Shown: one piece after another, positions 29,562 to 53,820 of the stretch | Position numbering within the stretch: position 1 is the stretch's first letter | Layout: each line of letters starts with the position of its first letter | Source: a bacterium | GTDB taxonomy: Bacteria > UBP15 > UBA6099 | NCBI GenBank assembly: GCA_029564595.1 | Contig: JAKQPS010000113.1 | Location: forward strand, 96,227-160,226 | Direction: 5' to 3' | DNA length: 64,000 nucleotides | Program-made: the position numbers and the translations under genes | The notes under the pieces: generated by a model | The model's input: only the letters and a program-made list of their open reading frames with translations | The model's database searches: none | What the model was told of the DNA's origin: nothing

Positions 29562-29607
29562 AGCCGTAAGAAAAGAAGCAGACAACTGAGAAAAGGCGGA
29601 TTGAACA

Positions 29608-30900: not shown

Positions 30901-30953
30901 CGCGAAAACCGACAATGAAGAATAATTGCCGTCAATAAAACTGACACATAACG

Positions 30954-31820: not shown

Positions 31821-31896
31821 GACACGTTCTCCACAAATCCGGTTCGACTAGATAAGTTGTAATATAATAAGCGCCATCAATATTGTTGTCAATTGG

Positions 31897-33125: not shown

Positions 33126-33130
33126 GTTTT

Positions 33131-34006: not shown

Positions 34007-34073
34007 TTCGACCTCGCAATAATTAATCGAACTAATATTATTGTACTAACATTCCGGAATATCAAACCGAGAT

Positions 34074-34102
34074 TGACATTACCGATAAATGAATTCTATA
34101 CT
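34074..34102 (+). promoter_or_regulatory. Strong sigma-70-type promoter of the zinc-ribbon-STAS gene
   Basis: A perfect TTGACA (34074-34079) is separated by 17 bp from TATACT (34097-34102). Transcription would begin near 34109, which excludes the upstream TTG at 34073 as a start and leaves a leader of about 18-21 nt. Confidence 0.78.
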
Positions 34103-34126
34103 AGAAAAAAGAGTCTGGCAAAAAAC

Positions 34127-35879: not shown

Positions 35880-35973
35880 TATCCATGAAACCTCCGCATT
35901 ATAGTATAGCACACGCGCGCCGGGTCATGGAGCGCAGAAACAAAGGTTGTATCGATTATTAATTTTGAGTTTG

Positions 35974-36642: not shown

Positions 36643-36643
36643 A

Positions 36644-38026
36644 TCAGAATATCTTCTCTTTCCATCTTTTCCTGAATTCAGCGCCGCTTATTTTTTTGTC
36701 TCTGTATTCCATATAGTCGGCATATTCGATATTCCAATGGGCGCGCGAAGAGCCGTCCGCGTCCTTCAGATGTATCACCATCGTCTTGAGCGGAATCCTG
36801 TTGTCTACCGTTATTCTCTCATGCACCGATTTGAAAACATTCTTCAGTTCGTCCGCAAGCTTTCTGTCGCCGATATTGGCGGACGAGAAAGTGACATAGA
36901 CCACCTCTCCGTCGCCGGAGAAGTAAACCGTTTCCGGTCTTACGCCGTGAACCGCGATTACGCTAATGATTCCCTCCGCGGCCAGTTTGGTTTCTTTCGC
37001 GATATCGAACGCGCCCTTTTCCGCGGGCTTATTCGGTTGCGGCTTTGCTATTTTTGCGTCTTTTGCGGAGGGACTCTCTTTTTTGTTCCCTCTTTTGAAC
37101 AGCCCGGTTATCTTTGACAATGCGTTTTGAACGGGCTTCAAAGCTTTGGATAGCGCCGAGCCGGACTGCGTTTTTTCATCCTGCCCGGATGTTTCCATAA
37201 TCAAATCGGGAGATATCCGAGGAACGGCGCCGCCGTCCTTCTGTTCCTGCGCTGCGGGCTGAGCCGTCGCGGGCGCGGCGGCAGGTTTTTCTGACGGGGC
37301 CGGAGCGGATGGCTGTTTCGCATCTGAGGCGGGCGGAGCTTTTTCCGGCTTCTGTTCGGCGGCGGGCGGCTGAATCTTTCCTTCCGCTTTTGGCGGCTGA
37401 GGCTGAGCCGGCGCTGACGGCTCAGGCGCTGGAGCGGGCGCGGCTGCCGCTTTCTCAGCCGTCGCTATCGGCTGCCCTTCATACGCTTTCCTCATCCAGT
37501 CGGCTTCGATGAACTTGTCGCCGGACTTCGTCCTGTAGTAGTCGAGAAGCCGTTTGAACTGATTGAGATTTCTCTCCTCGACCTCGCACTCTCCGCCCCA
37601 AAGAGCGGCGAGATAAAGTCCCTGACGGACATCGTCGAATTCAGACTTCTTGGCGGCGTCTATAGCCAGCGCCACGAACCCCTGATACATCAGCGCTCTT
37701 CGAAGGCATTCCACCTCGATGTCGTTGACCTGAAAGAATTCCACTATCTTGTGCGACTCCATAGGATTGGTGTCCACCGCGGCAAAAAGCGTGTTTCTTA
37801 TTCTGTCGTTAATCTCGATAGGCAGGATTTTAGTTTTCTTGATGAGATTTAAAGCGTGCTGGTAATCCGACAACCCTCCGGCTAGATCGCCCGACGCAAT
37901 TTTTAATTCCGCCGACTCCACCGAATCTTTCGACTGGAGCATCGCCGTGAGAGGCGGATAAATCACCGTCGAAAACAGTATGAGGAGCATGGCGAGAATG
38001 AACCCGGCCACATGAATCTTTTTCAA
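36644..38026 (-). CDS. Single-span membrane protein with Pro/Ala-rich linker, unknown function
   Basis: 460 residues. One N-terminal membrane segment (FILAMLLILFSTVIYPPL) is followed by a helical, TPR-like region (about residues 35-180). A low-complexity Pro/Ala/Lys/Glu linker covers about 190-280. A C-terminal domain of about 110 residues starts near IAKETKLAAEGIISVIAV. It has ETVYFSGDGEVVYVTFSSA and ends with RAHWNIEYADYMEYRDKK. The linker would let the C-terminal domain reach across the periplasm. I do not recognise either domain. It precedes tmk by one base, so it may be an operon mate for expression reasons only. Confidence 0.75.
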   Translation of the reverse strand: MKKIHVAGFILAMLLILFSTVIYPPLTAMLQSKDSVESAELKIASGDLAGGLSDYQHALNLIKKTKILPIEINDRIRNTLFAAVDTNPMESHKIVEFFQVNDIEVECLRRALMYQGFVALAIDAAKKSEFDDVRQGLYLAALWGGECEVEERNLNQFKRLLDYYRTKSGDKFIEADWMRKAYEGQPIATAEKAAAAPAPAPEPSAPAQPQPPKAEGKIQPPAAEQKPEKAPPASDAKQPSAPAPSEKPAAAPATAQPAAQEQKDGGAVPRISPDLIMETSGQDEKTQSGSALSKALKPVQNALSKITGLFKRGNKKESPSAKDAKIAKPQPNKPAEKGAFDIAKETKLAAEGIISVIAVHGVRPETVYFSGDGEVVYVTFSSANIGDRKLADELKNVFKSVHERITVDNRIPLKTMVIHLKDADGSSRAHWNIEYADYMEYRDKKISGAEFRKRWKEKIF

Positions 38027-38160
38027 AATGTCACCCCGATTTGTTCATGCGCCCCCGCCCTATCGAGCGGAAGTCGCGTATTCATATCGCGAATAGCATC
38101 AAATTATATTGCAGGCCGCGATTTCGCGCAACCGGAGACGGCGCGCCGCCGCCCTCCTGC

Positions 38161-38820
38161 TCATACGTCCGTCTCTTTCGTTTTTTCGTAGAATGCCTTC
38201 ACCGGACACACCTCGACGCAGCGCATACATGAAATGCAGGAGGATTCCGCGAGCGGGCCGCCGCCGAAAACGCCTACCGTCATCTTCAGGCCCCTGTGGA
38301 TGAAATCAATCGCGCGCGCGTCAACTTCCTCGTTGCAAACATACACGCACCTTCCGCACATCACGCACCTGTCGGAATCATAGCCTATCCTCGGATGGCT
38401 CAGATCGAGCGGAGCGTCGCGGAGAATCTCAGGCAGCCTGCCCGATTTGAGCTTGAATTTCATCTTCTTGGCGATTTCCTGAAGAGCGCATCTTTTGTTG
38501 CCGGGACACGCCGCGCAATCAACGGGATGCGTTGTCATTAGAAGCTCAAAAGCCGCAGACACAAGCTCCCTGACTCGCCATGAGTCAGTCCGCGCGACCA
38601 TCCCCTCTTCCACTACCGTCGAACAGCTCGTCACTGGCTCCGGGACGCCTTCCAACTCGACGAAGCAAAGCCGGCAAGACGCTTCGGGAGTCTCTCTTTC
38701 CCGAAGGTCGCAGAGATTCGGGATATAAACGCCGTTGTCCAGAGCCGCGCGCAACAGGCTTTGCCCGGCTTTGGCTTTTATCTCGCGCCCGTCTATGTAA
38801 ATCGTGACATCTTCCGTCAT
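38161..38820 (-). CDS. HoxU/NuoG-like iron-sulfur subunit of an NAD(P)H-linked complex
   Basis: About 219 residues. A plant-type 2Fe-2S domain (CDLRERETPEASCRLC) is followed by a His-Cys3 cluster segment (THPVDCAACPGNKRCALQ) and two 4Fe-4S motifs (CVMCGRCVYVC and CISCMRCVEVCP). This is the electron-transfer head of NuoG, also found alone as HoxU or in bifurcating hydrogenases and formate dehydrogenases. ATG 38820 lies directly after the stop of the NuoF-like gene. The catalytic part that normally follows (HydA, FdhA or the rest of NuoG) is absent here. Confidence 0.88.
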   Translation of the reverse strand: MTEDVTIYIDGREIKAKAGQSLLRAALDNGVYIPNLCDLRERETPEASCRLCFVELEGVPEPVTSCSTVVEEGMVARTDSWRVRELVSAAFELLMTTHPVDCAACPGNKRCALQEIAKKMKFKLKSGRLPEILRDAPLDLSHPRIGYDSDRCVMCGRCVYVCNEEVDARAIDFIHRGLKMTVGVFGGGPLAESSCISCMRCVEVCPVKAFYEKTKETDV

Positions 38821-38821
38821 G

Positions 38822-40825
38822 TTATTCTTTCCGTTTTTCAGGGCCGCCGCCGTCTCGCGCTCCGTCCGATTTCTTATCCGGCTTCTGTTCCGGTATCGCG
38901 TTCGCCGGGGACACAAGGAACACCGCGTCGTACGACGCCGGACAGGCCTCCAGACAACTATGGCATTTGACGCATTTCTCCTGATCTATAGCCTTAAGCC
39001 TGTCGCTTCTCGTGTAAATGGCTTCAGTGGGACAACTTCCAACGCAGGCGTCGCACGCCCTTCTGCACTTTTCCAAATCTATATAATATGCGATTAACTT
39101 CTCGCATTCGCACGCTGGACAGACCTTTTCCTCAATATGAGATTCATATTCGTTTCTAAAATACCTCAATGTGGTCAACACAGGGTTCGGGGCTGTCTTG
39201 CCGAGGTTGCACAACGAGCCTCTCTTCACCTTGTCCGCAAGCTCTTCCAGAGTCGCAAGGTCTTCTTCTGCCCCTTCGCCTCTCGTTATGCGGGACAGGA
39301 TGTCGAGCATGTGTTTGACGCCGACCCGGCAGAAAACGCATTTGCCGCAAGACTCCTTCACAGTGAAATCCAGAAAATACTCTGCGGCGGCCACCATGCA
39401 GTTGTCCTCGTCCATCACAACCATGCCGCCGGAACCCATTATGGCGCCCGCCTCCCGCAATGAATCGAAATCCACAGGAGTGTCGAGCAGAGACTCCGGC
39501 AGACATCCGCCGGACGGCCCGCCTATCTGCACGGCCTTGAACGCGCGGGCCTTCATCACTGGTTTCTCTCCGGGAAGCTGGGACGGTTTTATCACCGGAG
39601 GAATTCCTCCTCCGATTTCAAAAATAACATCTCTGAGAGTCGTCCCCATTGGGACTTCAACCAAGCCGGGGTTCCTTATCTTTCCGGCCAGCGCAAAAAC
39701 GACCGTCCCCTTGCTGTCCTTCGTTCCAACCGAAGCAAACTCCTCGGCGCCCCGCGCCATTATCCAAGAGACGTATGAGAGCGTCTTCACATTGTTGACA
39801 AGAGTCGGGCAGCCTTTGTATCCGCGTTCGGCGGGAAAAGGAGGCCTCAACCGGGGAGTCCCCCGCCTGCCTTCAAGAGAGTTGATAAGCGCCGTCTCTT
39901 CTCCGCAGACGAAAGCTCCCGCGCCCTGAACAACCTCGATGTCGAAATCCAGCCCGCTTCCGAGGATGTCCGTTCCTAGCAATCCTTCCCGCCTCGCCGA
40001 CGCCACAGCCGACGAAATCCTCTCCACCGCCAGAGGATACTCGTTTCTTACGTAGATAAAACCCTTTTTCGCGCCCACCGCGTATCCGGCTATCGTCATG
40101 CCTTCAATGAGCGCGAACGGATCGCTTTCGATGAGCGTCCGGTCCATGAACGCGCCGGGGTCCCCCTCGTCGGCGTTGCAAATCACGAATTTCTTTTCCG
40201 CCGCAGATGCTTCCACCGCCGACCATTTTCTCCATGTCGGAAACCCCGCGCCGCCCAGACCTCGAAGCCCCGACTTCTTTATCTCGTCTATCGCCGCCAC
40301 CGGAGATGCCTTCAAGATCTTGACCAGTCCTGAATACCCGTCCTCGGCGATGTAATGAAAAATATTCTCCGGGTCAATCCTGCCGCACCGGGCAAGCAGG
40401 CGGCGAAGCTCGCCGCCGAACCGGGGCGAATAATACACGGACGGCACGATTTCGTTTTCTTCCACCGCGCCAAGCGCCCATTCCAGAGCCGGGTCTTCGT
40501 TCACAAGAAAATTCTTTATCAGAAAAGGAGCAAGTCCCTCGGTGATGTTGCCGTAGTATATCTCAGGCCATCCGGGCTTCGATATTGAAACAAGCGGCTC
40601 GGCGTAGCAGTGGCCGTGACATCCGACTTCCATCACGCGAGCGTTTATTGAATTTTCTTTGACCGCCGCTTTTATCGCCGCAAGCGTTTCAAGCGCGCCC
40701 GCAGACCGTCCGCAGGTTGCGGTCCCGACCGTTATCAAGACCTCCGCACCGCCTTTAAGCCCTGCGCTCTCGGATGCGGCCTTTTCTTTCAACGTCTCGA
40801 ATATGTCGGATATCGTGTCAGTCAT
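38822..40825 (-). CDS. NuoF/HydB/HoxF-like NADH-binding flavoprotein with ferredoxin tail
   Basis: About 667 residues. An N-terminal thioredoxin-like 2Fe-2S domain (VGTATCGRSAGA, then VGCHGHCYAEP) is followed by the NuoF core. FMN/NAD motifs are GLRGLGGAGFPTWRKW and CNADEGDPGAFMDR, and the 4Fe-4S site is ESCGKCVFCRVG. The C-terminal extension has two 4Fe-4S motifs (CRRACDACVGSCP and CVKCHSCLEACP). This architecture is that of HydB/HndC in electron-bifurcating or NADP-reducing hydrogenases. It overlaps the NuoE-like gene by 8 bp (start ATG 40825), so the set is one operon. Confidence 0.9.
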   Translation of the reverse strand: MTDTISDIFETLKEKAASESAGLKGGAEVLITVGTATCGRSAGALETLAAIKAAVKENSINARVMEVGCHGHCYAEPLVSISKPGWPEIYYGNITEGLAPFLIKNFLVNEDPALEWALGAVEENEIVPSVYYSPRFGGELRRLLARCGRIDPENIFHYIAEDGYSGLVKILKASPVAAIDEIKKSGLRGLGGAGFPTWRKWSAVEASAAEKKFVICNADEGDPGAFMDRTLIESDPFALIEGMTIAGYAVGAKKGFIYVRNEYPLAVERISSAVASARREGLLGTDILGSGLDFDIEVVQGAGAFVCGEETALINSLEGRRGTPRLRPPFPAERGYKGCPTLVNNVKTLSYVSWIMARGAEEFASVGTKDSKGTVVFALAGKIRNPGLVEVPMGTTLRDVIFEIGGGIPPVIKPSQLPGEKPVMKARAFKAVQIGGPSGGCLPESLLDTPVDFDSLREAGAIMGSGGMVVMDEDNCMVAAAEYFLDFTVKESCGKCVFCRVGVKHMLDILSRITRGEGAEEDLATLEELADKVKRGSLCNLGKTAPNPVLTTLRYFRNEYESHIEEKVCPACECEKLIAYYIDLEKCRRACDACVGSCPTEAIYTRSDRLKAIDQEKCVKCHSCLEACPASYDAVFLVSPANAIPEQKPDKKSDGARDGGGPEKRKE

Positions 40826-41378
40826 CCTTATTACCGCGCTCCGGGCCGCCGTTTTCCGTTGCAGCCGGGCCGCGCCCGTCTTCAAGTCCGTGTTGAACAA
40901 GAAGACCGTCCACTGACGCGGGAGTCATCTTGCCTTTAGCCTCGCCGTCGACGACCGTAACCGGAGCCATCGCGCAGCATCCTACGCAGTCCACCCTGTC
41001 TAGACTGTACTCCCTGTCCGGCGTTGTCTCCCCCTCGTTTATTCCGAGACGTCTTTTCCATGAATCAAGAATAATATTGCCGCGTTTCACATGGCAGGCC
41101 GTTCCCATGCAGACGCTTATCTGCCTGCGCCCCGGCGGCACGAACCTGAACCTGTTATAGAAAGTAGCCACGCTGTAAACTGTAGTTTCGGAAACGCCAA
41201 GCTTGGCGGCGATTATTTTCATGCCCTCCGCAGGCAGCCATCCGACCTCCTGCTGCACTGCGATGAGAGCGGCGGTCAGGTTTCCGCCCTCGGCGAACGC
41301 GGCCATCGTTTTGCCGACAGCCTCAAGCTCTTCAGGCGCGCAACTCCACGCGTTTGTTCTTTCTCCCTGTTCTGTCAA
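40818..41378 (-). CDS. NuoE/HydC-like thioredoxin-fold 2Fe-2S subunit
   Basis: 186 residues. GWLPAEGMKIIAAKLGVSE and VYSVATFYNRFRF are the NuoE helical part. CMGTACHVKRG and DCVGCCAMAPV carry the four cysteines of the 2Fe-2S cluster. It passes electrons between the flavoprotein and the 2Fe-2S relay. The start is TTG 41378 (AAGGA about 11 nt upstream); no internal ATG fits the fold better. It is the first gene of the operon, directly behind the promoter and inverted repeat at 41415-41457. Confidence 0.88.
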   Translation of the reverse strand: MTEQGERTNAWSCAPEELEAVGKTMAAFAEGGNLTAALIAVQQEVGWLPAEGMKIIAAKLGVSETTVYSVATFYNRFRFVPPGRRQISVCMGTACHVKRGNIILDSWKRRLGINEGETTPDREYSLDRVDCVGCCAMAPVTVVDGEAKGKMTPASVDGLLVQHGLEDGRGPAATENGGPERGNKDD

Positions 41379-41414
41379 ACTTTTACTTTTCCTTCTCGCC
41401 GCTGCCGGACGTCT

Positions 41415-41450
41415 CTAGTCCGGACTTTTTTTATAAGAAATCCGGACTAG
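41415..41450. promoter_or_regulatory. Inverted repeat, likely operator of the diaphorase operon
   Basis: CTAGTCCGGA (41415-41424) is repeated in inverse as TCCGGACTAG (41441-41450) with a 16-nt AT-rich centre. The left arm also contains the perfect palindrome AGTCCGGACT. The repeat spans the predicted -10 and spacer, a position suited to a repressor. I cannot match it to a known regulator. Confidence 0.6.
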
Positions 41451-41457
41451 TATGCAA
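41430..41457 (-). promoter_or_regulatory. Putative promoter of the diaphorase operon
   Basis: On the minus strand TTGCAT (41452-41457), a 16-bp spacer and TATAAA (41430-41435) precede the TTG start at 41378 by about 50 bp. The rest of the 328-bp gap up to 41706 is AT-rich with further TATAAT-like boxes (for example near 41551) and holds no gene that I can see. Confidence 0.5.
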
Positions 41458-41706
41458 TTATAGAATAGCGCCGCGACTTAATGCGGGCAACGCTAGAAAA
41501 AACCGCTCCTTTTAATTCGATGTTAAAAGTTAGCTCTTACTCTGTCTCTTTATAATACGCAACAATTACAAATTAACACTCTTCCAAAAACCAAACAGGC
41601 AATTAAACAAACTTGTCGCAAAAAACCTCATGGAAATCATGTTAATCTGGCATAAATCCGGATATGGCTATAAAATGGAAAAGCTATTGTGTCAAAGGAG
41701 AGGATT

Positions 41707-43599
41707 ATGAACTTAAAGAGAATCATCATTGTCATTATGGCGGTTGCCGTCGCGAGATTTAATGCGGCAAGTCTGAAATGCTTTGCGGAGCCTCCCGCCG
41801 ACCTCGTGAGAATGAAACCTTATGTCAGCACGGCCAAGATGGGCATAGCCGCTAAGAATGATGTCGTCATGGCGAGGAACGCTCAAGCGACGGCTCAAGG
41901 ATTCCGGGATGTGGCACGCCGGGACATCGGCGGCTGGATGCTCGACTCTAAACCGGGCGCGAAACCTATTAAACCCGGCGAGGCAACTGACGGCTTGCTC
42001 GCGGTAAACCTGCCCCGCTCTTGGGGAGAAGAGCCGTCGGGCGTTTTCTCCACAGACTTCACCATGCCCTCTGAAATCAACGGCTATCCCGTCGGGGACA
42101 GCCCTGTTTTCCTCGAATTCGACGGAAAGACCTCGTTGGAAATCTATATCAACGGCAAAAGGATTAAGACATTCACGGCCGCAGGCTCGCTCGACGTCAC
42201 AGGTAAAATCAAACCCGGCGAAAGTGTGACGCTCGGAGTAAAAATCACGGACATGACGCAAAAAGGGAAATTCAATTACGCGCGCGTTCGCGCGTCCCGA
42301 TTGGAATCCGTCAGACAACCCGCCGAGGATGTCGCCTCTCTCCTCGAAAGCGCCGGGTCTCTATTCGACCAGTTGCCCGCTAGACACAAACCCCTTGCTG
42401 ACGCAGTATCAGCAGCTATTAAAGAGATGGAAGCGCTGAAGAATGAAAAAGACATAGACGCGGTTGTCGCCGGGTTGGAGCGCGTAAAAAGCATTCTTGC
42501 GCCGACGCAAGACCTTCTGGCGCTCTATCCGGTGTTCAACGCCGGCCCTTACCTTCAAAACGTCAAACCGGATGAGATAACTGTGGCGTGGGAAACAAAA
42601 GCTCCCGCTCCGTCAGTAGTGTACTATGGCCGGGACGGACTGACCGATGTCGTCTCCGACCCCTCCCCGACAACTTTTCATAAAGTAGTCATAAAGGGAC
42701 TCGAACGAGAAACAGAATATAAGTATCTGGCTGTTTCCAACAAGCTCGCCGCTCCAGAATCCACTTTTAAAACCTCGATCAATCGGGACACTCCTTTCAA
42801 ATTCGCCGTGTGGGGCGACAACCAGTCCAACCCTATGATATTCGAACCGACAGTTGACCTGATGATTAAGGAGAAGCCCGACATCATCATAAACGTCGGG
42901 GATGAAGTGGGCTGCGGCAGCGATTACTCCCAATGGGCGCGGGAACTGTTCTATCCCCTTCGCAGATTGGCAATCAATACTCCTTATTTCACGGCTATCG
43001 GAAATCATGAATACTGCAGATACGATTGCGGCAAACCGGTCGTTTGGTTTGAGAAATACATGGCTCTGCCCCCCAACGAAGGCTATTATTACGCTGTCAC
43101 TTACGGTAACAGCCGGTTCATAATGCTCAACCAGCAGGCGCAGGCCGGTTGCGCTGGCGTAGTTCCCGGAACCGAGCAGTACGATTGGCTCCTCAAAGAA
43201 CTGGAGTCGCCGGAGTTCAAAGCGGCCGACTTCCATTTCATGTTCATGCACAAACCTCCGTACTCTAACTGCTGGGCCGGCGGGTATTATGACGGAGAAG
43301 CCTCCGCCCGCGTTCATCTGGTTCCTCTCATCGAGAAATACGGCATCGACATAGTGTTCTCCGGACACACTCACGATTACGAGCGCGGCCAGTGGCCACG
43401 CCCCGGCGGCCCATATTACATCATCACAGGCGGCGGTGGCGGCAGCCTCGACGACACTCAATACAAAGAGTGGCCGCAGATGCAAATGCATAAGTTCGTC
43501 TATCACTTCAGCCTTATTTCGATTGACGGAAAGAAACTCGGTTTCTCGGCCATCGATCAAGGCGGCAACAAGATAGATTCTTTCGAAATAGTGAAATAA
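41707..43599 (+). CDS. Exported purple-acid-phosphatase-like metallophosphoesterase
   Basis: About 630 residues. A signal peptide is followed by an approximately 200-residue region with a beta-sandwich (FLEFDGKTSLEIYINGKRI). A purple-acid-phosphatase-type FN3 domain (LQNVKPDEITVAWETK) and the phosphoesterase domain come next. Metal blocks are AVWGDNQSN, INVGDEVG, IGNHEYCR, MFMHKPPYS and FSGHTHDYERG. The first block has Asp-Asn (GDNQ) as in PAP-like enzymes. ATG 41707 has AAAGGAGAGG just upstream, better than GTG 41689. The probable role is phosphate-ester hydrolysis in the periplasm or outside. It is followed at 45 bp by an acyltransferase gene. Confidence 0.86.
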   Translation: MNLKRIIIVIMAVAVARFNAASLKCFAEPPADLVRMKPYVSTAKMGIAAKNDVVMARNAQATAQGFRDVARRDIGGWMLDSKPGAKPIKPGEATDGLLAVNLPRSWGEEPSGVFSTDFTMPSEINGYPVGDSPVFLEFDGKTSLEIYINGKRIKTFTAAGSLDVTGKIKPGESVTLGVKITDMTQKGKFNYARVRASRLESVRQPAEDVASLLESAGSLFDQLPARHKPLADAVSAAIKEMEALKNEKDIDAVVAGLERVKSILAPTQDLLALYPVFNAGPYLQNVKPDEITVAWETKAPAPSVVYYGRDGLTDVVSDPSPTTFHKVVIKGLERETEYKYLAVSNKLAAPESTFKTSINRDTPFKFAVWGDNQSNPMIFEPTVDLMIKEKPDIIINVGDEVGCGSDYSQWARELFYPLRRLAINTPYFTAIGNHEYCRYDCGKPVVWFEKYMALPPNEGYYYAVTYGNSRFIMLNQQAQAGCAGVVPGTEQYDWLLKELESPEFKAADFHFMFMHKPPYSNCWAGGYYDGEASARVHLVPLIEKYGIDIVFSGHTHDYERGQWPRPGGPYYIITGGGGGSLDDTQYKEWPQMQMHKFVYHFSLISIDGKKLGFSAIDQGGNKIDSFEIVK

Positions 43600-43644
43600 T
43601 TACGGAGATTCGCCGCTGAAATTGAAGACGGTCAAACGCCGATT

Positions 43645-44733
43645 ATGATAGACAGCGACATATCACGAAGAATCGAGATTCTGCGATATCCTCTGATGCT
43701 CGCGATAGTATTGTTCCACATTCCGGCGGGCCTTATTTACAACGACATAGCCGCTTCCAACGATTTTACTAAGCTGCTCATAGTCTTTTTCTCTTGGCTG
43801 GTCGGAGGCATGGGCGTTCCATTTTTCTTTCTCATTTCCGGTTTTCTTCTTTTCAAGGACTTCGACGCAACGCTTGAATCCTACAAAGGAAAAGTTTTCA
43901 GCAGAGTCAGAACTCTTCTGATTCCATTTATTCTTTGGAGCTTGATTGCTCTCGCCCTGAAGACTGCTATTCTTTCCGTGCCCATGTTCTCAGGTTTGGA
44001 CACAGTCACAGACACAACAATCAACGAATATACCGGAGCGGCTCTAATACTGCGCCGCGCTTTCGAGTTGTTAATGCTGCCCACAATCGGGCCATTGTGG
44101 TTCATCAGGGACCTGTTCATAATGACGCTGCTCTCTCCGCTGGTCTGGTTCGCCGCGAAGAAGGCTCCATTGCCGGGTATGGCCGCGATGTGCGGCGTCT
44201 GGTTTTTTAGAATCGACACGGACGCCATGCTGTTGTCGGACCTCCATGAAACGCTTCCAGTGTTTTTCTTCTCCGCATGCGTCTGGGCGGGAAAATGGGA
44301 CATTAAAAAACTAGACCGCTTCACGGCATTCATCGGCGTCGTTTACGCGCTCTGCGCCGCTTTCACTCTTTGGGCCATCAGCGCGGACGCGATATCCTCT
44401 TTTCATTCCGTTATGCACAAACTTGCCGTCCTCTTCGGAATACTCTTCTTTTGGACATGTTCAGCCGTTCCCCGCGGAAGTCTTGATCTCGTCTTGGGAA
44501 AACTCTCGCAATACAGCTTCTTCGTTTACGCTGTTCATGTTCCTTTCCTCGACTTGCTCCAGAAACTCTATATGAAGTTTAATTTCCCTCGAAGCGACTC
44601 TGAAATAATGGCGTTTTACTCTATCACATGGGTCATTACCGCAGGGGCGACTACTTTAATCGCCGTCGCGGCGAAACGCCTGACCCCGCGCGCTTACAAC
44701 CTGCTCATCGGCGGACGCAGCGCAGACGAATAA
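43645..44733 (+). CDS. Acyltransferase 3 family membrane protein
   Basis: 362 residues with about ten membrane segments. RIEILRYPLMLAIVLFHIP carries the family His in helix 1. GGMGVPFFFLISGFLLFKD and GPLWFIRDLFIMTLLSP are the typical conserved blocks. These proteins acylate (often O-acetylate) extracellular glycans or lipids at the inner membrane. The next gene is a methyltransferase, so both may decorate a surface polymer (inference). The ribosome site is weak. Confidence 0.85.
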   Translation: MIDSDISRRIEILRYPLMLAIVLFHIPAGLIYNDIAASNDFTKLLIVFFSWLVGGMGVPFFFLISGFLLFKDFDATLESYKGKVFSRVRTLLIPFILWSLIALALKTAILSVPMFSGLDTVTDTTINEYTGAALILRRAFELLMLPTIGPLWFIRDLFIMTLLSPLVWFAAKKAPLPGMAAMCGVWFFRIDTDAMLLSDLHETLPVFFFSACVWAGKWDIKKLDRFTAFIGVVYALCAAFTLWAISADAISSFHSVMHKLAVLFGILFFWTCSAVPRGSLDLVLGKLSQYSFFVYAVHVPFLDLLQKLYMKFNFPRSDSEIMAFYSITWVITAGATTLIAVAAKRLTPRAYNLLIGGRSADE

Positions 44734-44766
44734 CGCGCTCTTAATGAAAAGGAATTGAAGGATTAT

Positions 44767-45450
44767 ATGAAAAACCTCAAACTGGACGGAAGAGCGGACA
44801 TCATCAAATTCATAAGAGACGAACTCGGGAAACTCCCGAAAGGCTCTCTCGTGCTTGACGCCGCCGCCGGCGACCCCGACTACCAAGTGCGCGTCGACGG
44901 CCATCATTACTACACCGTCGACTTGTGCGTTGGAGACATTAACTGGAGATATAATCTTATCGACGTTATAGGAAACCTAGAACAGTTGCCTTTCAGAGAC
45001 GGCTCTTTCGACGCGGTCATCTGCACCGAAGTTCTCGAACACATGAGAGACCCGCAGACAGTGCTAAGCGAGATATGCAGAGCGACGAAAAAAGGCGGCA
45101 AAGTTTTCGTCTCCGCGCCGATGGAGAAATTCGTGCATCAGGCTCCTTACGACTTTTTCAGATACACCCCTTACGGATTTGCGCGGCTGTTCGAAGTCGC
45201 CGGTTTCTCATCGTGGGAAATCATGCCTATCGGCGGCTATTTTCGTTTAATGGCAGCCCAGACTGCTTATGTAAAAACTTTCCTGCTTCCGAAATCGGAC
45301 AACCTCTTTATCAAAGTTCTCCGTTATCCGATAAAAATACTGTTCATCGTTTTTATAGAGTTCATCCTCGCGCATATTCTCTATCTTATGGACGGACTGG
45401 ACAAAAAACGCCTCTCAACTATTGGTCATAAAGCGGTCGCGGTTAAATAG
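44767..45450 (+). CDS. Class I SAM-dependent methyltransferase
   Basis: About 227 residues. LVLDAAAGDPDYQVR is the SAM loop, and FDAVICTEVLEHMRDPQTV and AGFSSWEIMPIGGYF follow the Methyltransf_11/Ubie-like pattern. A hydrophobic stretch near the C-terminus (IKILFIVFIEFILAHILYL) suggests membrane association, seen in lipid- or glycan-modifying members. I chose ATG 44767, with AAGGA just upstream, over TTG 44755. It is 33 bp after the acyltransferase gene, so the two are probably one transcript. Confidence 0.82.
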   Translation: MKNLKLDGRADIIKFIRDELGKLPKGSLVLDAAAGDPDYQVRVDGHHYYTVDLCVGDINWRYNLIDVIGNLEQLPFRDGSFDAVICTEVLEHMRDPQTVLSEICRATKKGGKVFVSAPMEKFVHQAPYDFFRYTPYGFARLFEVAGFSSWEIMPIGGYFRLMAAQTAYVKTFLLPKSDNLFIKVLRYPIKILFIVFIEFILAHILYLMDGLDKKRLSTIGHKAVAVK

Positions 45451-46923: not shown

Positions 46924-48267
46924 TCAGCAATCAATCCTGATATCATCAGCCGTCATTCCGTCCGAAAAAAGACCGCGCAGAGAGCCGTATGCGATCCGGC
47001 CTTTCAGTTCATCCGCTGCTTCGGCAAACACGCGGATATAGTTGCGCGTCAGGCCCGTCAGCCTCCCAGTCGCAGGATCGCGGCGCGACTCGAATAGAAT
47101 CTCCGCGCGTTCACCCACATGCCGGAGCCTGAATTCCTCGCCTAACCGCTTTTTTATCGCTGACAGGTCTCTCGCCCGCCGCTTTTTTATCTCATCAGAA
47201 ACTTGCCCCGGCATCTCCGATGCCGGCGTTCCTTCGCGCGGCGAATATCTGAATATATGCAGATGAGACGGCCTTGTCGATTCGAGCAACGCTTTCGTTC
47301 GCAGATGATTTTCTTCGCTCTCGCCGGGAAATCCCACAATCACGTCCGCTCCTATCGCGGCTTCAGGAAAAATATCTCTCAATGAGTCAACCGAGCGGCG
47401 GTATTCGTCCGAAGCATAGCCTCTTCTCATCATCCTCAGTATAGAGTCGTCCCCGCTCTGAAGGGAAACATGGAAATGGCCGCATATTTTATCCTTGCCG
47501 TTTTTTAGCGCGGCAAGAAAACCGGGCGAAATCTCTCCGGGGTCGATTGATCCCAGCCTTATTCTGCGAATTCCGTTCACATCAAGCAAAGCGCGCAGCA
47601 AGTCGGCCAGCGTTTTGTTTTCTTCGGAACCTCTTCCATATCTACCTATGTGAACGCCAGTGAGAACAATTTCCTCGTAACCGTTCGCCGCCAGCCGGGC
47701 CGCCATGCCGACAGCCGATTCCATTGGAGCGCTTCGCTCTTTTCCTCTGGCGATAGGCACTATGCAATATGAACACCGTCTGTCGCATCCTTCCTGAATC
47801 CTAAGGAACGCCCTGTCTCGCCCTGCCATCCCTTCAATTTCCATAATGCGGAACTTCTTCTGTCTGGACACATCGCCAATAGCCCTGCGCGGCGCGCCCT
47901 CCCCTGCCTTCAATGCTTCATCGACAAGCTCAGGGATGCGGTCTTTTTCAAGCGTTCCGGAAATGATGTCTATGCCGGAAACCATCGATTCGATCTCGCC
48001 GGGATTGACTTGAGAATAGCAGCCTGTCGCCACCACGACCGAGCCGGGATTGGCGTTTTTCATGGCGACGGCTCGCCGCAAAATCTGACGGCATTGGTGG
48101 TCCGTCGAGCCTGTCACCGAACATGTGTTTACCACATATACATCGGCCGCGACATCCTTCGAGAACGGGACGGACTCATACCCCGCTCGCTCGAACGCGA
48201 ACCTAATCGCTTCGGTATCGGCCTGATTCAGTTTGCAGCCAAGAGTAGCAAACGCGACGCGTTTCAT
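46924..48267 (-). CDS. mtaB: tRNA t6A37 methylthiotransferase MtaB
   Basis: About 447 residues. The UPF0004 domain has FATLGCKLNQAD, VVNTCSVTGSTDHQCR and ATGCYSQVNP (three cysteines for the auxiliary 4Fe-4S). The radical SAM core has EGCDRRCSYCIVP. HVSLQSGDDSILRMMRRGY and IGADVIVGFPGESEE are family blocks, and a TRAM-like end (RAEILFESRRD) completes it. MtaB converts t6A to ms2t6A at position 37 of tRNAs reading ANN codons. ATG 48267 has GGGAGG about 8 nt upstream. Confidence 0.92.
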   Translation of the reverse strand: MKRVAFATLGCKLNQADTEAIRFAFERAGYESVPFSKDVAADVYVVNTCSVTGSTDHQCRQILRRAVAMKNANPGSVVVATGCYSQVNPGEIESMVSGIDIISGTLEKDRIPELVDEALKAGEGAPRRAIGDVSRQKKFRIMEIEGMAGRDRAFLRIQEGCDRRCSYCIVPIARGKERSAPMESAVGMAARLAANGYEEIVLTGVHIGRYGRGSEENKTLADLLRALLDVNGIRRIRLGSIDPGEISPGFLAALKNGKDKICGHFHVSLQSGDDSILRMMRRGYASDEYRRSVDSLRDIFPEAAIGADVIVGFPGESEENHLRTKALLESTRPSHLHIFRYSPREGTPASEMPGQVSDEIKKRRARDLSAIKKRLGEEFRLRHVGERAEILFESRRDPATGRLTGLTRNYIRVFAEAADELKGRIAYGSLRGLFSDGMTADDIRIDC

Positions 48268-48339
48268 CCGTCCGCCTCCCAGAAATATTGTACACGCGAG
48301 GGCGTGGCGGCGCATTCATCGGCATATTTTTGTGCGATT

Positions 48340-48657
48340 TCAGAGTTCTTCTTCTGAGCGAACAAAGCGTATCACTTGGTTCATGCGAGTTCGGAGCATC
48401 GATTCGAGGGCTACATTTCTGGCGTTCAAAACCACGAATTCGCCGCCTTCGGCGACGGCTTTCTCGTGGAACCTCAGAAGCGTTCCGATCACGCTTGAGT
48501 TGATAACAGGGGATTCCATGAGGTCCACGCATATCGCATGGTCGCCGGAATCGAACAGTATGGCCAACTGTTCGGACAAACGGGAGGAGTCCTCTATCAT
48601 CGACAGGTCTCCGCCCGGACACACAACACAGAATTTTCCTTTTCTGCGAATCCTCAC
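48340..48657 (-). CDS. STAS-domain protein with altered phosphosite context (STAS operon, last gene)
   Basis: About 105 residues. It has FCVVCPGGDLSMIEDSSRL, HAICVDLMESPVINSSVIGTLLRF and GGEFVVLNARNVA, a SpoIIAA-like order of strands and helices. The usual Asp before the switch serine is Asn here (INSS), so the phosphorylation equilibrium may differ. GTG at 48657 with GGAGG 9 nt upstream is the best start; longer frames upstream include Cys-rich, unlikely sequence. It follows the next STAS gene by 110 bp, with a possible weak promoter between them. Confidence 0.75.
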   Translation of the reverse strand: MRIRRKGKFCVVCPGGDLSMIEDSSRLSEQLAILFDSGDHAICVDLMESPVINSSVIGTLLRFHEKAVAEGGEFVVLNARNVALESMLRTRMNQVIRFVRSEEEL

Positions 48658-48767
48658 ATCCGGCTCCCTCCGCCGACAGCGGCCTACGCAATAAATTCTA
48701 TCACAATCAGCATCCGCGTGAACCGCTAATTTTAATAATGTCAATTTCGAAAAACAGAATGATTATT

Positions 48768-49115
48768 TCAGGGGATATTTTCGACATTGTCATAAATCTT
48801 GAAAATGCTTCTAAAATTCAGCATGTCGAATAGTTGAAGAATAGCGGGAGCGGCCCCGGCAATAAACATCTCCCCGCCTCGCGATCTCACATATTTCAAT
48901 GCCGCTACAAGAGAACCGAGGCTTACGCTGTCGATGATCTGAATGTTGGACATATCTATCACCACGTCGCCGGAGCGGTCGGTCAAAGAATCCTTCACGG
49001 AGTTAAGGAAGCCTCTGTTGTTGTTGTGGGTTATCTCGTTGACTAGCGGGGTGATGACGATAGCGCCGCCGCTGAGGCGCGTCTCAACATCCATGTTGTC
49101 TTGTTTCTCGATCAT
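48768..49115 (-). CDS. STAS-domain anti-sigma factor antagonist-like protein (STAS operon)
   Basis: About 115 residues. GGAIVITPLVNEITHNNNRGF opens the fold. The switch loop is IQIIDSVSLGSLV (Ser after Asp), and GGEMFIAGAAPAILQLFDMLNFRSIFKIYDN (in part) is the C-terminal half. ATG 49115 has GAGGAG 4-9 nt upstream. The upstream 67-residue gene ends 8 bp before this ATG, so the ribosome site of one lies at the stop of the other. Confidence 0.85.
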   Translation of the reverse strand: MIEKQDNMDVETRLSGGAIVITPLVNEITHNNNRGFLNSVKDSLTDRSGDVVIDMSNIQIIDSVSLGSLVAALKYVRSRGGEMFIAGAAPAILQLFDMLNFRSIFKIYDNVENIP

Positions 49116-49123
49116 GCGGCTCC

Positions 49124-49327
49124 TCAAGCATACGAGTCGAATCTGGCAAAACGCTGAATGCTGTCCGTGCGCGCAGTCCACGGCCCCTGCTCGATGAGCG
49201 GCCGCCTGTTTTCATCAATCGATTTGAATGCCTCGGCCATGACCCTGAGCCATGTCGCGCTCTTATAAAGCCCGCCAGCCATCCATGTTATCTGCGCCGC
49301 GCTTCCTCCGCCTTCAATCGCTGACAT
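49124..49327 (-). CDS. 67-residue protein between two STAS genes, unknown function
   Basis: The sequence has IEGGGSAAQITWMAGGLYKS at its N-terminus, then WLRVMAEAFKSIDENRRPLIE. The start has GGGAGG 6 nt upstream and overlaps the end of the upstream STAS gene by 14 bp. Its stop lies 8 bp before the next STAS ATG. Tight packing on both sides argues that it is translated. No membrane segment or known motif. A small partner of the STAS proteins, or a helical adaptor, is only a guess. Confidence 0.7.
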   Translation of the reverse strand: MSAIEGGGSAAQITWMAGGLYKSATWLRVMAEAFKSIDENRRPLIEQGPWTARTDSIQRFARFDSYA

Positions 49328-49682
49328 CGGCTTCCTCCCTTTCTCTGAACCATGCGACAGCGCTTTCCACGCTGTTAAACACCTTTATCACTTTATTCAG
49401 ATGCAACGCGCCGAACAACTCGTTGATTTTCGGGTCTTTTATCACCACTACCATGTCGCCGCCCAAACGGCGCGCGAACAACAGCAGCGGCGCGAGCATC
49501 CCGAGCGCCAAACTGTCCATGAACTTCACTCTTGAAAGGTCTAAACAAATATTGCAGTTGTAATCGCTGAATGAGCTTCTAACCTTGGCAAAGGTTTCCT
49601 CGTAATTCGTAAACTGTATGACCTCCACCAGAACGGTGACGACACGCGTTTCCTCTATGTCTTTAACAAGAGTGTATATCAT
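49314..49682 (-). CDS. STAS-domain protein, first gene of the STAS operon
   Basis: 122 residues. It has VVTVLVEVIQFTNYEETFAK, the switch loop LSRVKFMDSLALGMLAPLLL (Ser after Asp but no following Ser/Thr-Gly) and HLNKVIKVFNSVESAVAWF. AGAGG precedes the ATG by 8 nt, and a TATAAT (minus strand, 49733-49738) lies 51 bp upstream of the start. It shares a divergent promoter region of about 240 bp with glgC. Confidence 0.83.
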   Translation of the reverse strand: MIYTLVKDIEETRVVTVLVEVIQFTNYEETFAKVRSSFSDYNCNICLDLSRVKFMDSLALGMLAPLLLFARRLGGDMVVVIKDPKINELFGALHLNKVIKVFNSVESAVAWFREREEADVSD

Positions 49683-49864
49683 TGACTGGCCTCTCGGTCA
49701 TGACGCAAACACGCATAACGTTACTGTACTACATTATAACGACAGTTTTTAAAATAACTTTACAATGAAAACCGAGACGCGGCGCCAAAACCGTCAAATA
49801 TCGATTATTCAGGACTTTATTTGCGAAATAAAGCATTCTCTCAACCGAATAAATTCCCAACGGC

Positions 49865-49893
49865 TTATGCCGGAATGCCCGGTGTGTTATAAT
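49865..49893 (+). promoter_or_regulatory. Putative promoter of glgC
   Basis: TATAAT at 49888-49893, 17-bp spacer, TTATGC at 49865-49870. It lies about 30 bp before the ATG, which is preceded by GGAGG at 49910-49914. The -35 is weak. Confidence 0.45.
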
Positions 49894-49924
49894 TTCCGAG
49901 ACAATACATGGAGGCGACGGGATA

Positions 49925-51220
49925 ATGGTTCAGGTTTTGAGCATGGTGCTTGCCGGAGGCGAAGGGGAAAGGCTTTCCATACTGACACAAAGGCGCGCAA
50001 AACCCGTCGTCCTTTTCGGAGGCATGTACCGTGTCATCGATTTCGTGCTCTCCAACATAATAAACTCAGGTTTCAGAGACATCGGCATGCTTCTGCAGTA
50101 CGAGCCTGACTCCGTTCTCAAACACCTATCCTTCGCATGGACGATGGACAGAGGAATCGCGAGAATAGACACGCTTTTCCCGAAAAGAAAAAATGAAAGC
50201 TACGAAAGCCCCGCAGACGCTGTTTTTAAAAGGCTCGATTACATTCTGGATAAAAATCCGGTGTACGTCCTCATCGTCCCCGGAGATTACGTGTCTCTCA
50301 TAGATTACAGAAAAATCGTCCGGTATCACGAAGAAATGGAAGCGGACCTGACAATAGCCGGAACGATGGTGGATTCTTCAAAAGCGAACCGGTTCGGAAT
50401 GATGAAGGTGAACCCGAGCGGAGAAGTGACCGGATACGTCGAAAAACCCAAGGGGAAAATCGACACGAACTTCGCCTCAATGGGCATTTATGTTTTTACA
50501 TTGGATGTGCTTGTCAGAAGGCTCATCGAAGAGGACCGCACAAGCGGAGGCAGCCCGATAAGTTTCACATACGGGATGCTGCCGAAAATGCTGGGAGAGG
50601 ACCGCGTTTTCGCGTACAACTTCGAGGGATACTGGCGAGACATAGGAACAATCGATTCATATTTCGAGTCCAATCTGGAACTGATAAAGATAATGCCGGA
50701 ACTGAACCTGTACGACGTGAGGAACCCGTTGCGCTCTCGGCTGCGGTTCGAGCCTCCCGCTAAGATATGCGAATACGGGAGCGTGAAAAACTCGATAATA
50801 ACCCAAGCGAGCTTGATTGACGGTCACGTCGAGCGCTCAATAATATTCCCTCACGTGCGAATCGACAAAGGGGCGGAAGTGTACGACTCTCTCATCATGC
50901 CAAACAACCACATCGGCGCCGGAACGATAATACGCCGCTCAATACTGGACACGGTATCCCGCCAGCAGCATAACGACATGAAGCCCAACATCGGGCGAGA
51001 CAGCGTGATAGGCGGTTACGGAGACGCGCGCCCGAATATCGAGCAGCCCGACGCGCTCAATTCCAGCATCACTCTCGTCGGCATGGAATCGGAGATTCCC
51101 GACAACACTATCATAGGAAGAAACTGCATAGTGTATCCGGATGTTCGTTCTGTGGATTTTCAGGGACGCAGAACAATATCAGACGGGGAATGCGTGCATC
51201 CGACTTTGCACAGGCTGTGA
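49925..51220 (+). CDS. glgC: Glucose-1-phosphate adenylyltransferase (GlgC type)
   Basis: 431 residues. VLAGGEGERLSILTQRRAKPVV is the nucleotide-binding signature (in part). YRVIDFVLSNIINSG, VLIVPGDYVSLIDY, GYVEKPK and YWRDIGTIDSYFESNLEL follow GlgC. The C-terminal left-handed beta-helix with INDxH-like ring motifs (NNHIGAGTIIRRSILD) is present. It makes ADP-glucose for glycogen from glucose-1-phosphate and ATP. One change from the standard motif is GERLSILT in place of GTRLxPLT, with Glu instead of Thr. No glycogen synthase is adjacent. Confidence 0.88.
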   Translation: MVQVLSMVLAGGEGERLSILTQRRAKPVVLFGGMYRVIDFVLSNIINSGFRDIGMLLQYEPDSVLKHLSFAWTMDRGIARIDTLFPKRKNESYESPADAVFKRLDYILDKNPVYVLIVPGDYVSLIDYRKIVRYHEEMEADLTIAGTMVDSSKANRFGMMKVNPSGEVTGYVEKPKGKIDTNFASMGIYVFTLDVLVRRLIEEDRTSGGSPISFTYGMLPKMLGEDRVFAYNFEGYWRDIGTIDSYFESNLELIKIMPELNLYDVRNPLRSRLRFEPPAKICEYGSVKNSIITQASLIDGHVERSIIFPHVRIDKGAEVYDSLIMPNNHIGAGTIIRRSILDTVSRQQHNDMKPNIGRDSVIGGYGDARPNIEQPDALNSSITLVGMESEIPDNTIIGRNCIVYPDVRSVDFQGRRTISDGECVHPTLHRL

Positions 51221-51236
51221 GCTAGGCTCTGTTCGA

Positions 51237-51971
51237 TCACCAGAAGAAGACCACATTGTCAATGTATATCTCGCCTTCCGGCATTATCGTAATCTTCACC
51301 TTGCCGGAGCCTTTTGATTCGTCCTTTATCAAATAATTGAAAACAACTCCCTCGCGTCTGAAATCCAATGCGGCTTTTCCTCTCATCAGTTTTATGGCCG
51401 GCCCGTCTTTCGCGCTGAACCTCGGCTCGGCATAGATTCCTGCAAAAGTGTGGAACGGAGAGGCGAGAATCAGGTCTAATTCGTTCAAGTTTACGGCGAA
51501 CCTCGGATTGAAAGCTTTCCAGTTGGGGACTTCTTCAGAGCGGGCTTTTGTCGCGGAAATCGAATCCGGTTTTGACAATGAATGAGAATATTTCCTGACG
51601 GCTTTCTTTAAGAACTTCTGCGAAAATGAAGGCGACCGCAGTATTCTCGTTTCGCTGAAAGTCGCTCTGACCACAGGGTCTATGTAACACTTTTCCGGCT
51701 CGTTCGAGAATACGCAAACAAACACGAGCGCGCGCCTGTCTTTCGCGTTTTCAGAGAACCTCACGCCGAAGCTCTGCGAGAAAGACTTGGTCAGCAAAGC
51801 CGTTATCTCTCTTGCCTCCAACAAATCTCCATCGCCCTGCCTCGGAATGGTTCCGGCCTTAACCGAATAGTTCTTTGCCAGCCTTTCCGCGTAAATATCC
51901 CAGAACTCAGCCGCGCAAGCTGACCCAGCCAGCAATATGATTACCGCCGCGAACGCCGCCGTCTTTTTCAT
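51237..51971 (-). CDS. Exported protein of unknown function
   Basis: About 244 residues with a signal peptide (FAAVIILLAGSACAAEF). The rest is a mostly beta/alpha, basic protein with no motif that I know: DLLEAREITALLTKSFSQSF, KCYIDPVVRATFSE and a beta-rich C-terminus (KVKITIMPEGEIYIDNVVFFW). ATG 51971 has GGAGGGGAGG upstream, among the best sites in the window. It converges on glgC with a 16-bp gap. Location is probably periplasmic; function unknown. Confidence 0.75.
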   Translation of the reverse strand: MKKTAAFAAVIILLAGSACAAEFWDIYAERLAKNYSVKAGTIPRQGDGDLLEAREITALLTKSFSQSFGVRFSENAKDRRALVFVCVFSNEPEKCYIDPVVRATFSETRILRSPSFSQKFLKKAVRKYSHSLSKPDSISATKARSEEVPNWKAFNPRFAVNLNELDLILASPFHTFAGIYAEPRFSAKDGPAIKLMRGKAALDFRREGVVFNYLIKDESKGSGKVKITIMPEGEIYIDNVVFFW

Positions 51972-52115
51972 TGTCCACACCTCCCCTCCACTATTAATAT
52001 ACCCGCCCAAGCGCGCGTCTAATCACAATTATCGGCTTTGTTATTGGCATTATTATTGACAATGGATTCTCAGACTGCCTGTCGGAGCGCTGTTAAGCAA
52101 CAACATTGCGGGTCT

Positions 52116-52448
52116 TTATATTCTCATCAGAGCCTCTTCCTTATTCGAAAATATCCTGTACTGTTCATCTATATGCAATCGGGCGAGAGTGTTTCTCACA
52201 TCCGCAGGCACGGCGGCCAACGCGATTTTTCTGTCGTTAAACTTCTGTTTCACATTTAATAAAAAAGCTGCTCCTTTGCTGTCAATGAACGTCAATCCGG
52301 CCATGTCTATTATCACAGGCAGGTTGTTTCCGCTTCTGACCTCGTCTATGGCGAATATAAGGGCTTCGAGGTATTCGCCGACCATCTCCCCTGTCAATTT
52401 TATCATGTTGTTGTTCTCGATCATCGCCGAATCAACCGTCAATTTCAT
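52116..52448 (-). CDS. STAS-domain anti-sigma factor antagonist-like protein
   Basis: About 110 residues. MIKLTGEMVGEYLEALIFAI, PVIIDMAGLTFIDSKGAAFL (in part; Ser after Asp, then Lys-Gly) and LARLHIDEQYRIFSNKEEAL follow the SpoIIAA fold. ATG 52448 has AAAGGGG 8 nt upstream; GTG 52457 is the alternative. Single gene between the exported protein and the flagellin terminator. Confidence 0.83.
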   Translation of the reverse strand: MKLTVDSAMIENNNMIKLTGEMVGEYLEALIFAIDEVRSGNNLPVIIDMAGLTFIDSKGAAFLLNVKQKFNDRKIALAAVPADVRNTLARLHIDEQYRIFSNKEEALMRI

Positions 52449-52566
52449 AAGCGCCACCCCTTTCCGTCATATATATCCCTAGTTTTTATTTACCCTGTTT
52501 TCATATAGATCAATCCGTTTTTCAGGATAATGCCGGGTTACGGTGGTCGCTTGAATGAACTCAAAC

Positions 52567-52596
52567 CAAAAACCCGGCCTTTCGGGCCGGGCTTTT
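52567..52596 (-). terminator. Intrinsic terminator of the flagellin gene
   Basis: CCCGGCC (52573-52579) pairs with GGCCGGG (52585-52591) around a 5-nt loop; on the minus strand it is followed by TTTTT. It lies 60 bp past the flagellin stop. Confidence 0.82.
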
Positions 52597-52654
52597 GTGT
52601 TTTCGTTTGTAATATATTCGCCGGATCTCTGCTTTCGCGGTCCGGATGCTTGCT

Positions 52655-53665
52655 TTATCTGTCCGAGGCGACTCCCGAATAACCGACCATCTTCTGTCCA
52701 TCCAATCCATCATATATGGCGTCAAGCAAGGGGACGGCTATCAAGGGCTGAGCGTTGGCTTGGCTGGCGATCATCGTAGCGCCCTGCTGCTTTATCATGT
52801 TCTTGGTATACTCGAATATCTCGTCGGCGAAATCCGCGTCTTCAATGCGCGAATTCGAAGCCGAGACGTTGATGTACTGAGTGTTCAGGTCGTTAATGGT
52901 TTTGTCCAGCCGTTCGTGCAGGATGCCGACTTGAACTCGAACTTCGTTCATCTTCTCCATCATGCTGTCGACTCTATCGAGCATGTCATGAGCATATCCG
53001 AGATAGTAGTTGTAGCCAGCATTGCTGAAGGCAGGCGGCGGGGTGAAAGGAGTTGTGAATCCGGCAAATTCTGATTTCAGGTTGTCGATTACGATATCAA
53101 TCTGGTTTGATGTGGAATTGTCTGGTCCGACCTGCGCCGCAAGCCCGAATTCGAAACTGTTGCCCATAGAATCAGCGCCGAAAATAGTTTTCTGATTAAA
53201 ATTAAACCTCGCGGTGTGGAAAGGAGCGCCAAGATCAAGTTTGTTATGAAACGCTCTGTAAACATGATCCTGCATGATCTCAATTTCTTTAGTGAGGGAC
53301 CAACAGTCGCTCATGTTCGGAACAGACCCGGGAACAGCGGTGGGGTTTGCGTTATTTACCGCTATGTTGGCGAGCTTCAAACAAAGGTTTCGCATCTCGT
53401 ACAGAACGTCCCATTGATCCGAAACATAGTGGTCGGTCAGGTCCAACAGATATTGGGTTTCCTGAGCGTTGCCGATAGCGACGCTTACGCCTCGCATCTG
53501 CGCCTTCATGCCTGATGAAATCGCCATGCCGGACGGATCGTCCGAAGCGTAGTTGATTTTCAGTCCGGATGAGAGCCGAGTGGTTTTTTCGGTGAATTCC
53601 AGTTGATTGAGCCTGGAGTAATTCTGTGACGTGAGCGCATAGATATTGGTGTTTACCGATATCAT
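52655..53665 (-). CDS. Flagellin
   Basis: About 336 residues. The conserved D0/D1 N-terminus is MISVNTNIYALTSQNYSRLN, with EKTTRLSSGLKINYASDDPSG and QETQYLLDLTDHYVSDQWDVL (in part). The C-terminal D1/D0 part has GILHERLDKTINDLNTQYIN, NSRIEDADFADEI and KNMIKQQGATMIASQANAQP. Unusually, the terminal helix goes on as LIAVPLLDAIYDGLDGQKM, about 20 residues beyond the normal SLL ending. Two cysteines occur in the middle region, which is rare in flagellins. It carries its own sigma-28 promoter and terminator; no other flagellar gene is in the window. GGAGG precedes the ATG. Confidence 0.9.
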   Translation of the reverse strand: MISVNTNIYALTSQNYSRLNQLEFTEKTTRLSSGLKINYASDDPSGMAISSGMKAQMRGVSVAIGNAQETQYLLDLTDHYVSDQWDVLYEMRNLCLKLANIAVNNANPTAVPGSVPNMSDCWSLTKEIEIMQDHVYRAFHNKLDLGAPFHTARFNFNQKTIFGADSMGNSFEFGLAAQVGPDNSTSNQIDIVIDNLKSEFAGFTTPFTPPPAFSNAGYNYYLGYAHDMLDRVDSMMEKMNEVRVQVGILHERLDKTINDLNTQYINVSASNSRIEDADFADEIFEYTKNMIKQQGATMIASQANAQPLIAVPLLDAIYDGLDGQKMVGYSGVASDR

Positions 53666-53820
53666 TTCGCTACCTCCATGTATTTTACTGCCGCTACGGG
53701 AAAAATCCTTTTTTCCCGCTTGCCCCGGAACCACCGTCTAACTTTACCCGCCCCGTGATGCCCTGAAAGCGCCTTGAGATATACTTCGCCAACGTGTCCG
53801 GCGCTTTCGCTACTGTTAAT

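Follow-up and report, generated by a model that had tools for sequence, protein, structure and literature searches.

A recurrent trio of two STAS genes and a small, apparently undescribed gene in a little-known bacterial phylum

Introduction

The antagonists TM1442, SpoIIAA and RsbV consist of a single STAS domain with a conserved switch serine. More than one STAS protein is encoded together in the stressosome system of RsbR, RsbS and RsbT, and in the SigF system of Mycobacterium smegmatis, as described in the accessible portion of PMC10950880, there are three antagonists and one anti-sigma factor, one of the antagonists being the RsbW homologue RsbW3.

Here, we analyse a group of small genes in a stretch of bacterial DNA of 64,000 nucleotides (the window), carried by the genome designated G000. 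The genes encode three STAS proteins, named A, B and C, and a protein of 67 amino acids, named S. All four minus-strand ORFs are present at 48340-49682:

49314..49682, minus strand: A (STAS protein, 122 aa), which opens the core; switch loop MDSLALG; Pfam STAS score 43.9 bits
49124..49327, minus strand: protein S, 67 aa, of an undescribed family; similarly placed in G005 and G006, incomplete in G001
48768..49115, minus strand: B (STAS protein, 115 aa); switch loop IDSVSLG; Pfam STAS score 64.1 bits, obtained with the longer ORF
48340..48657, minus strand: C (STAS protein, 105 aa); switch loop INSSVIG; Pfam STAS score 27.6 bits, obtained with the longer ORF

Like TM1442, SpoIIAA and RsbV, A and B have a single STAS domain with a conserved switch serine, and the model of B has the same fold. 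Unlike in these systems, two sister copies here flank a small gene, their loops lack the glycine at the second position after the serine, and no kinase or sigma factor gene lies alongside. The locus shares with the stressosome the joint encoding of more than one STAS protein, and RsbS is a structural match of B (Z 14.4); however, A, B and C (122, 115 and 105 aa) have only STAS matches, with no RsbR-type sensor domain, and the cluster holds no RsbT. The M. smegmatis SigF system likewise has more than one antagonist, although no counterpart of S was found in the accessible portion of PMC10950880. Outside the phylum, genome G015 also carries consecutive single-domain STAS genes, four in number (L035:4629-6835), but there a gene identified by eye as a HATPase follows, the loops keep the second-position glycine and S was not found in the genome. 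Given these two multi-antagonist examples, the premise of a first-pass annotation of the window, that a module normally has one antagonist, is too strict. No trio of the A-S-B type was found in the accessible portions of the literature on multi-STAS systems and small partners (including PMC8256260, PMC10950880 and PMC11418112).

Results

Each of the three STAS proteins scored above the curated Pfam STAS cut-off, although over-long starts were used for B and C in that scan. Together, the ORFs and the Pfam matches confirmed the annotated content of the locus, namely three STAS genes with the loops DSLALG, DSVSLG and NSSVIG and a gene of 67 codons. On the basis of a ribosome-binding-like stretch and alignment, the start of B was corrected to 49115 (115 aa rather than 137) and that of C to a GTG at 48657 (105 aa rather than 134). 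The genes for A and S share 14 nt; B begins 8 nt beyond the end of S, and a gap of 110 nt separates B from C. Against TIGR00377, the NCBIfam model for anti-sigma factor antagonists (cut-off 53.45), B scored above the cut-off with 57.8 bits, while A (42.1) and C (20.5) scored below it. Comparison with G001, a genome of the same genus, gave dN/dS values of 0.039 for B and 0.035 for C, against 0.148 for MtaB, and both genes are under strong purifying selection in this comparison. Scans for regulatory signals returned nine promoter-like sites (7.6 +/- 3.0 in shuffles) and 13 terminator-like sites (8.0 +/- 2.9 in shuffles); neither count entered the interpretation.

The relationship between the STAS proteins was investigated with a tree of 59 rows, which does not take in all of the 118 STAS matches recorded and comprises the STAS matches of G000, the orthologues of A, B and C, a few other members of the phylum, and at least one relative from each of 20-odd other genomes. 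Many of the deeper forks of this tree are unresolved. A (three rows), B (four) and C (five) each formed one clade, with support of 100/99 for A and 100/100 for C, and A and B were joined in one clade with support of 99/96 (99/95 in a tree of 55 rows). By this phylogeny, A and B are sister paralogues. A serine occupies the switch position in all 59 rows, including all 12 rows of A, B and C. The glycine two residues after the serine, characteristic of loops of the D-S-[ST]-G type, is present in 41 of the 47 other rows and in none of the 12 A, B and C rows, seven of which are A or B. Among the six other glycine-less rows are the STAS protein of C157 (YSMTLG) and a HEAT-STAS protein of C143 (VDSLALG). 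At L069:2408-3379, HEAT repeats are joined to a STAS domain that has the same DSLALG loop as A.

Fold comparison was made for B only. The AlphaFold2 model of B has a mean pLDDT of 90.8, and S63 opens a helix spanning residues 63-78. Its nearest fold by VIA is TM1442 (1vc1; Z 18.4, with 109 residues superposed at 1.9 A); SpoIIAA (1th8) follows at Z 15.9, amid other STAS proteins at 16.1 to 15.3, and RsbV (6m36; Z 14.9) and Bacillus subtilis RsbS (Z 14.4) are tied. Foldseek placed TM1442, SpoIIAA and RsbV well above RsbS. In a profile search of PDB sequences, TM1442 ranked first for both A and B; the profile of B matched RsbV (5e-5) slightly ahead of RsbS (2.9e-4), and that of A matched neither at 0.01. 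Thus, A and B by their profiles, and B by its model, are nearest to TM1442 and SpoIIAA.

The small protein S is very probably the product of a real gene, since it recurs with 36-43% identity in two other families (43% in G005 and 36% in G006), in the same place and order, with a purine-rich ribosome-binding-like stretch in all three. A chance ORF was rejected on these grounds of conserved place, sequence and ribosome-binding-like stretch. Comparison with G001 says little about selection on S, because the protein is identical over the 46 codons present there, with a single synonymous difference. S is present in four of the seven genomes of the phylum, and among 386 sampled genomes the same four, all of this phylum, were recovered. 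A 60-genome search gave a match in G025 (E 0.07, within an 846-aa frame) that was absent at E 0.001 when an alignment was used, and this match was taken as chance. S was not found in viral contigs or plasmids.

The window's S belongs to no family in Pfam, NCBIfam or PHROGs, and single members of the family gave only weak matches (phrog_7044, E 0.19; DUF1155, 0.056; ETF_alpha, 0.22). By sequence, S had one match in the PDB (E 1.5). A single-sequence model (mean pLDDT 76) predicts S to be helical; Foldseek found no match for it, which says little at this mean pLDDT and a pTM of 0.40. By these sequence comparisons, S represents an undescribed protein family.

The A-S-B arrangement, with all three genes on a single strand, recurs in G005 and G006, which represent two other families of the same taxonomic order. 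The orthologues of A share 54% identity in G005 and 50% in G006, and the overlap between A and S is 11 nt in G005 and 4 nt in G006. In G001 the contig ends within S, so that S-B-C is visible and A is not assembled. The flanks differ: GlgC (Pfam) lies opposite A in G000, while in G005 and G006 the genes opposite A encode a protein of 102 or 116 aa and, as named by eye, a putative homoserine dehydrogenase. Because the order of the trio is kept in three families with different flanks, and S occurs in four of the seven phylum genomes, we interpret A-S-B from its sequence and gene order as an old unit of the phylum with changed neighbours. A search of genome contigs with B returned one locus, the G001 contig, and viral contigs returned none.

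The presence of GlgC in G000, G001, G005 and G006, and its apparent absence from G002, G003 and G004, follows the same pattern as S. A link of the trio to GlgC or glycogen was considered weak and not adopted, as G005 and G006 have GlgC on another contig than A-S-B. The shared pattern may reflect the general gene content of these lineages.

Two genomes, G002 (67% complete) and G004 (80%), are uninformative on absence. In the close relative G003, C7 is collinear with window positions 27451-45450, its sense genes showing approximately 90-99% amino acid identity, and other genes follow beyond. The synteny break falls at about 45450. The A-S-B-C cluster is missing at the collinear place in G003, orthologues of S, A and C were not found in that genome, and the DNA of 46924-53800 gave only short matches of 69-79% to it. 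Its absence from G003 thus belongs to a variable region spanning several genes and does not represent a loss targeted at the cluster.

Matches to C were found in five of the seven phylum genomes (G000, G001, G004, G005 and G006), with a second, weak match in G006, but C lies beside B only in G000 and G001. A single four-gene operon A-S-B-C was rejected, as C is on other contigs than A-S-B in G005 and G006, stands alone in G004, and is 110 nt from B in G000. The annotation had read the three STAS genes as one operon and called for gene order to be compared in relatives: A-S-B stands as a conserved unit, whereas the position of C is not conserved.

On C182 of G004, the orthologue of C is divergent from two genes, one for a receiver-domain protein and one for a HATPase of 137 aa; for this HATPase, SpoIIAB and RsbW gave the best NCBIfam matches, both below their cut-offs. 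The six phylum genomes other than G004 have a protein of the type found on C131 of G000, in which receiver and HATPase are fused (domains were checked with Pfam for the G000 protein, and four of the six were aligned end to end). The two G004 proteins share approximately 31% identity with the two halves of the C131 fusion. Since the G004 protein was weakly placed in the kinase tree, with a long-branch warning, any assignment of a kinase to C in G000 is a guess. A tie of C to a receiver-controlled kinase is suggested by this gene context as a lead only.

The annotation had observed several antagonists with no adjacent kinase, and this was right: no HATPase_c_2 match at E 0.001 or better was found in the window. 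Among the neighbours of A-S-B, no kinase, phosphatase or sigma factor gene was recognized by eye in G000, within approximately 11 kb around the trio in G005, or along the G006 contig, which is 4.8 kb long. The genome of G000 has 19 STAS matches and ten HATPase_c_2 matches, five of them above the cut-off. An antagonist, a kinase and a sigma factor in one locus, not seen at A-S-B-C, are present on C79 of G000, where RsbV, RsbW and a sigma factor of the SigB/F/G family are encoded in a row. The search for HATPase_c kinases and a sigma factor elsewhere in the genome, which the annotation had proposed as a check, therefore found both, in the form of this RsbW with its sigma factor and the receiver-HATPases. 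The NCBIfam scores of the C79 RsbW are below the equivalog cut-offs. The rsbV-rsbW-sigB/F order recurs in G001 and G005, G004 and G006 also have these genes grouped, and the RsbW proteins of this locus share 46-54% identity among the four compared. A short RsbW of the C79 type was found in all four genomes with S and in one of the three without it (G004), and was not among the hits in G002 and G003. This co-occurrence carries almost no weight, as it concerns seven genomes, several of them incomplete assemblies.

Two receiver-HATPase fusions were found in G000, on C131 and C157; one of the genome's receiver-HATPase fusions lies 73 kb away, on the contig of the window. On C157, the STAS gene with the loop YSMTLG is directly upstream of the receiver-HATPase gene, on the same strand. 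RsbT was not named among the NCBIfam matches listed for five of the ten HATPase_c_2 proteins of G000. Two small HATPase proteins were also seen in an iron-sulfur/hydrogenase-like cluster, named by eye, at L043:7617-18404 of G000.

There are three SpoIIE matches in G000, one of them in the window at approximately 22.6-23.2 kb. At 22578-23825, a phosphatase gene that combines a SpoIIE domain with two CBS domains adjoins a STAS gene at 24099-24473 with the canonical loop IDSTGVG, with no kinase between them. Two further STAS genes of the window were recorded. At 34073-34672, a gene encodes a fusion of a double zinc-ribbon with a STAS domain; its orthologues in G003, G004 and G005 adjoin some of the same genes. 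On the minus strand, a flagellin gene (52655-53734) is closely followed by a fourth STAS gene (52116-52457; loop IDSKGAA), a pair also found in G001.

Discussion

As the likeliest reading, put forward tentatively and with somewhat less than an even chance, we speculate that A and B act in trans as serine-switch antagonists of an unlinked kinase, and that S is their dedicated adaptor or target. A and B would be a duplicated pair of the RsbV/SpoIIAA-like type, each with a serine at the switch position, and A, S and B may be made together from one coupled message. A HATPase_c kinase from another locus would phosphorylate both antagonists, and a SpoIIE-type phosphatase of the genome would free them again. 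The best candidate kinase is the putative RsbW on C79, in the rsbV-rsbW-sigB/F locus, in which case A and B would be extra inputs to its sigma factor; the second candidate is the receiver-HATPase fusion that shares a contig with the trio at a distance of 73 kb. As a small, predicted helical protein, S could bind A, B or both, either as an adaptor or as a target released by the switch. C would serve a receiver-HATPase system as an independent antagonist, its position beside B having arisen in this genus. Because the second-position glycine is missing from all seven A and B rows, recognition of A and B by a kinase may differ or be lost.

The missing glycine also features in an alternative that needs no kinase, in which A and B form a STAS heterodimer that acts with S to clamp a target other than a sigma factor, for instance a subunit of an enzyme or transporter, in the way that MlaB clamps MlaF, and the serine is structural or otherwise regulated. 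The lack of a recognized kinase beside A-S-B in the loci that were read is consistent with such a clamp, as are the metabolic neighbours, namely GlgC in G000 and, at the G005 and G006 loci, the putative homoserine dehydrogenase identified by eye. However, the serine is kept in all seven A and B rows, glycine-less loops do occur beside kinases, as shown by the C157 STAS protein (YSMTLG) and its receiver-HATPase, and the metabolic neighbour differs between families. We regard the clamp as unlikely. An output role for S can also be imagined within a new kind of STAS switch, in which the duplicated, glycine-less A and B hold S, their dedicated helical partner of 67 residues, and S is what the switch actually delivers. 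S could, for instance, be a small peptide of anti-sigma-like or enzyme-binding type that one STAS protein passes to the other, so that the partner switched is a third small protein and not the kinase; this we consider improbable.

The annotation had offered two explanations for the grouping of STAS genes, a stressosome-like scaffold and a competitive antagonist set. In a small version of the former, A, B and S would co-assemble into a large complex and sequester a kinase encoded elsewhere. Two unequal STAS proteins of the same clade are encoded together, RsbS is among the matches of B (tied with RsbV by VIA and close to it in the profile search), and the glycine-less loops presumably resemble the loop of RsbS and RsbR. 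Fold alone does not decide here, given the tie, but A and B have no N-terminal sensor domain of the RsbR type, RsbT is absent from the cluster, and TM1442 and SpoIIAA match better than RsbS; the scaffold is thus not supported, and we judge it very unlikely. A competitive or combinatorial antagonist set is possible. In its graded form, A, B and C would compete for one kinase and S would be an unrelated passenger gene, in keeping with the existence of multi-antagonist systems (in the accessible portion of PMC10950880) and with the array of four STAS genes and an adjacent HATPase gene that G015 carries. This form is quite unlikely, as it sits poorly with the retention of S between A and B in three families, the location of C on other contigs than A-S-B in G005 and G006, and the G004 orthologue of C with its own neighbouring kinase gene.

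Returning to the preferred reading of A and B as antagonists acting in trans, the 19 STAS matches of G000, set against five HATPase_c_2 matches above the cut-off, raise the question of how orphan antagonists are wired. The A-S-B trio, with its putative dedicated small partner, represents a compact and testable case. The host bacterium belongs to a little-known phylum, in which the trio recurs in distant relatives, and through the S family serine-switch signalling may prove to have an output or adaptor of a new kind.
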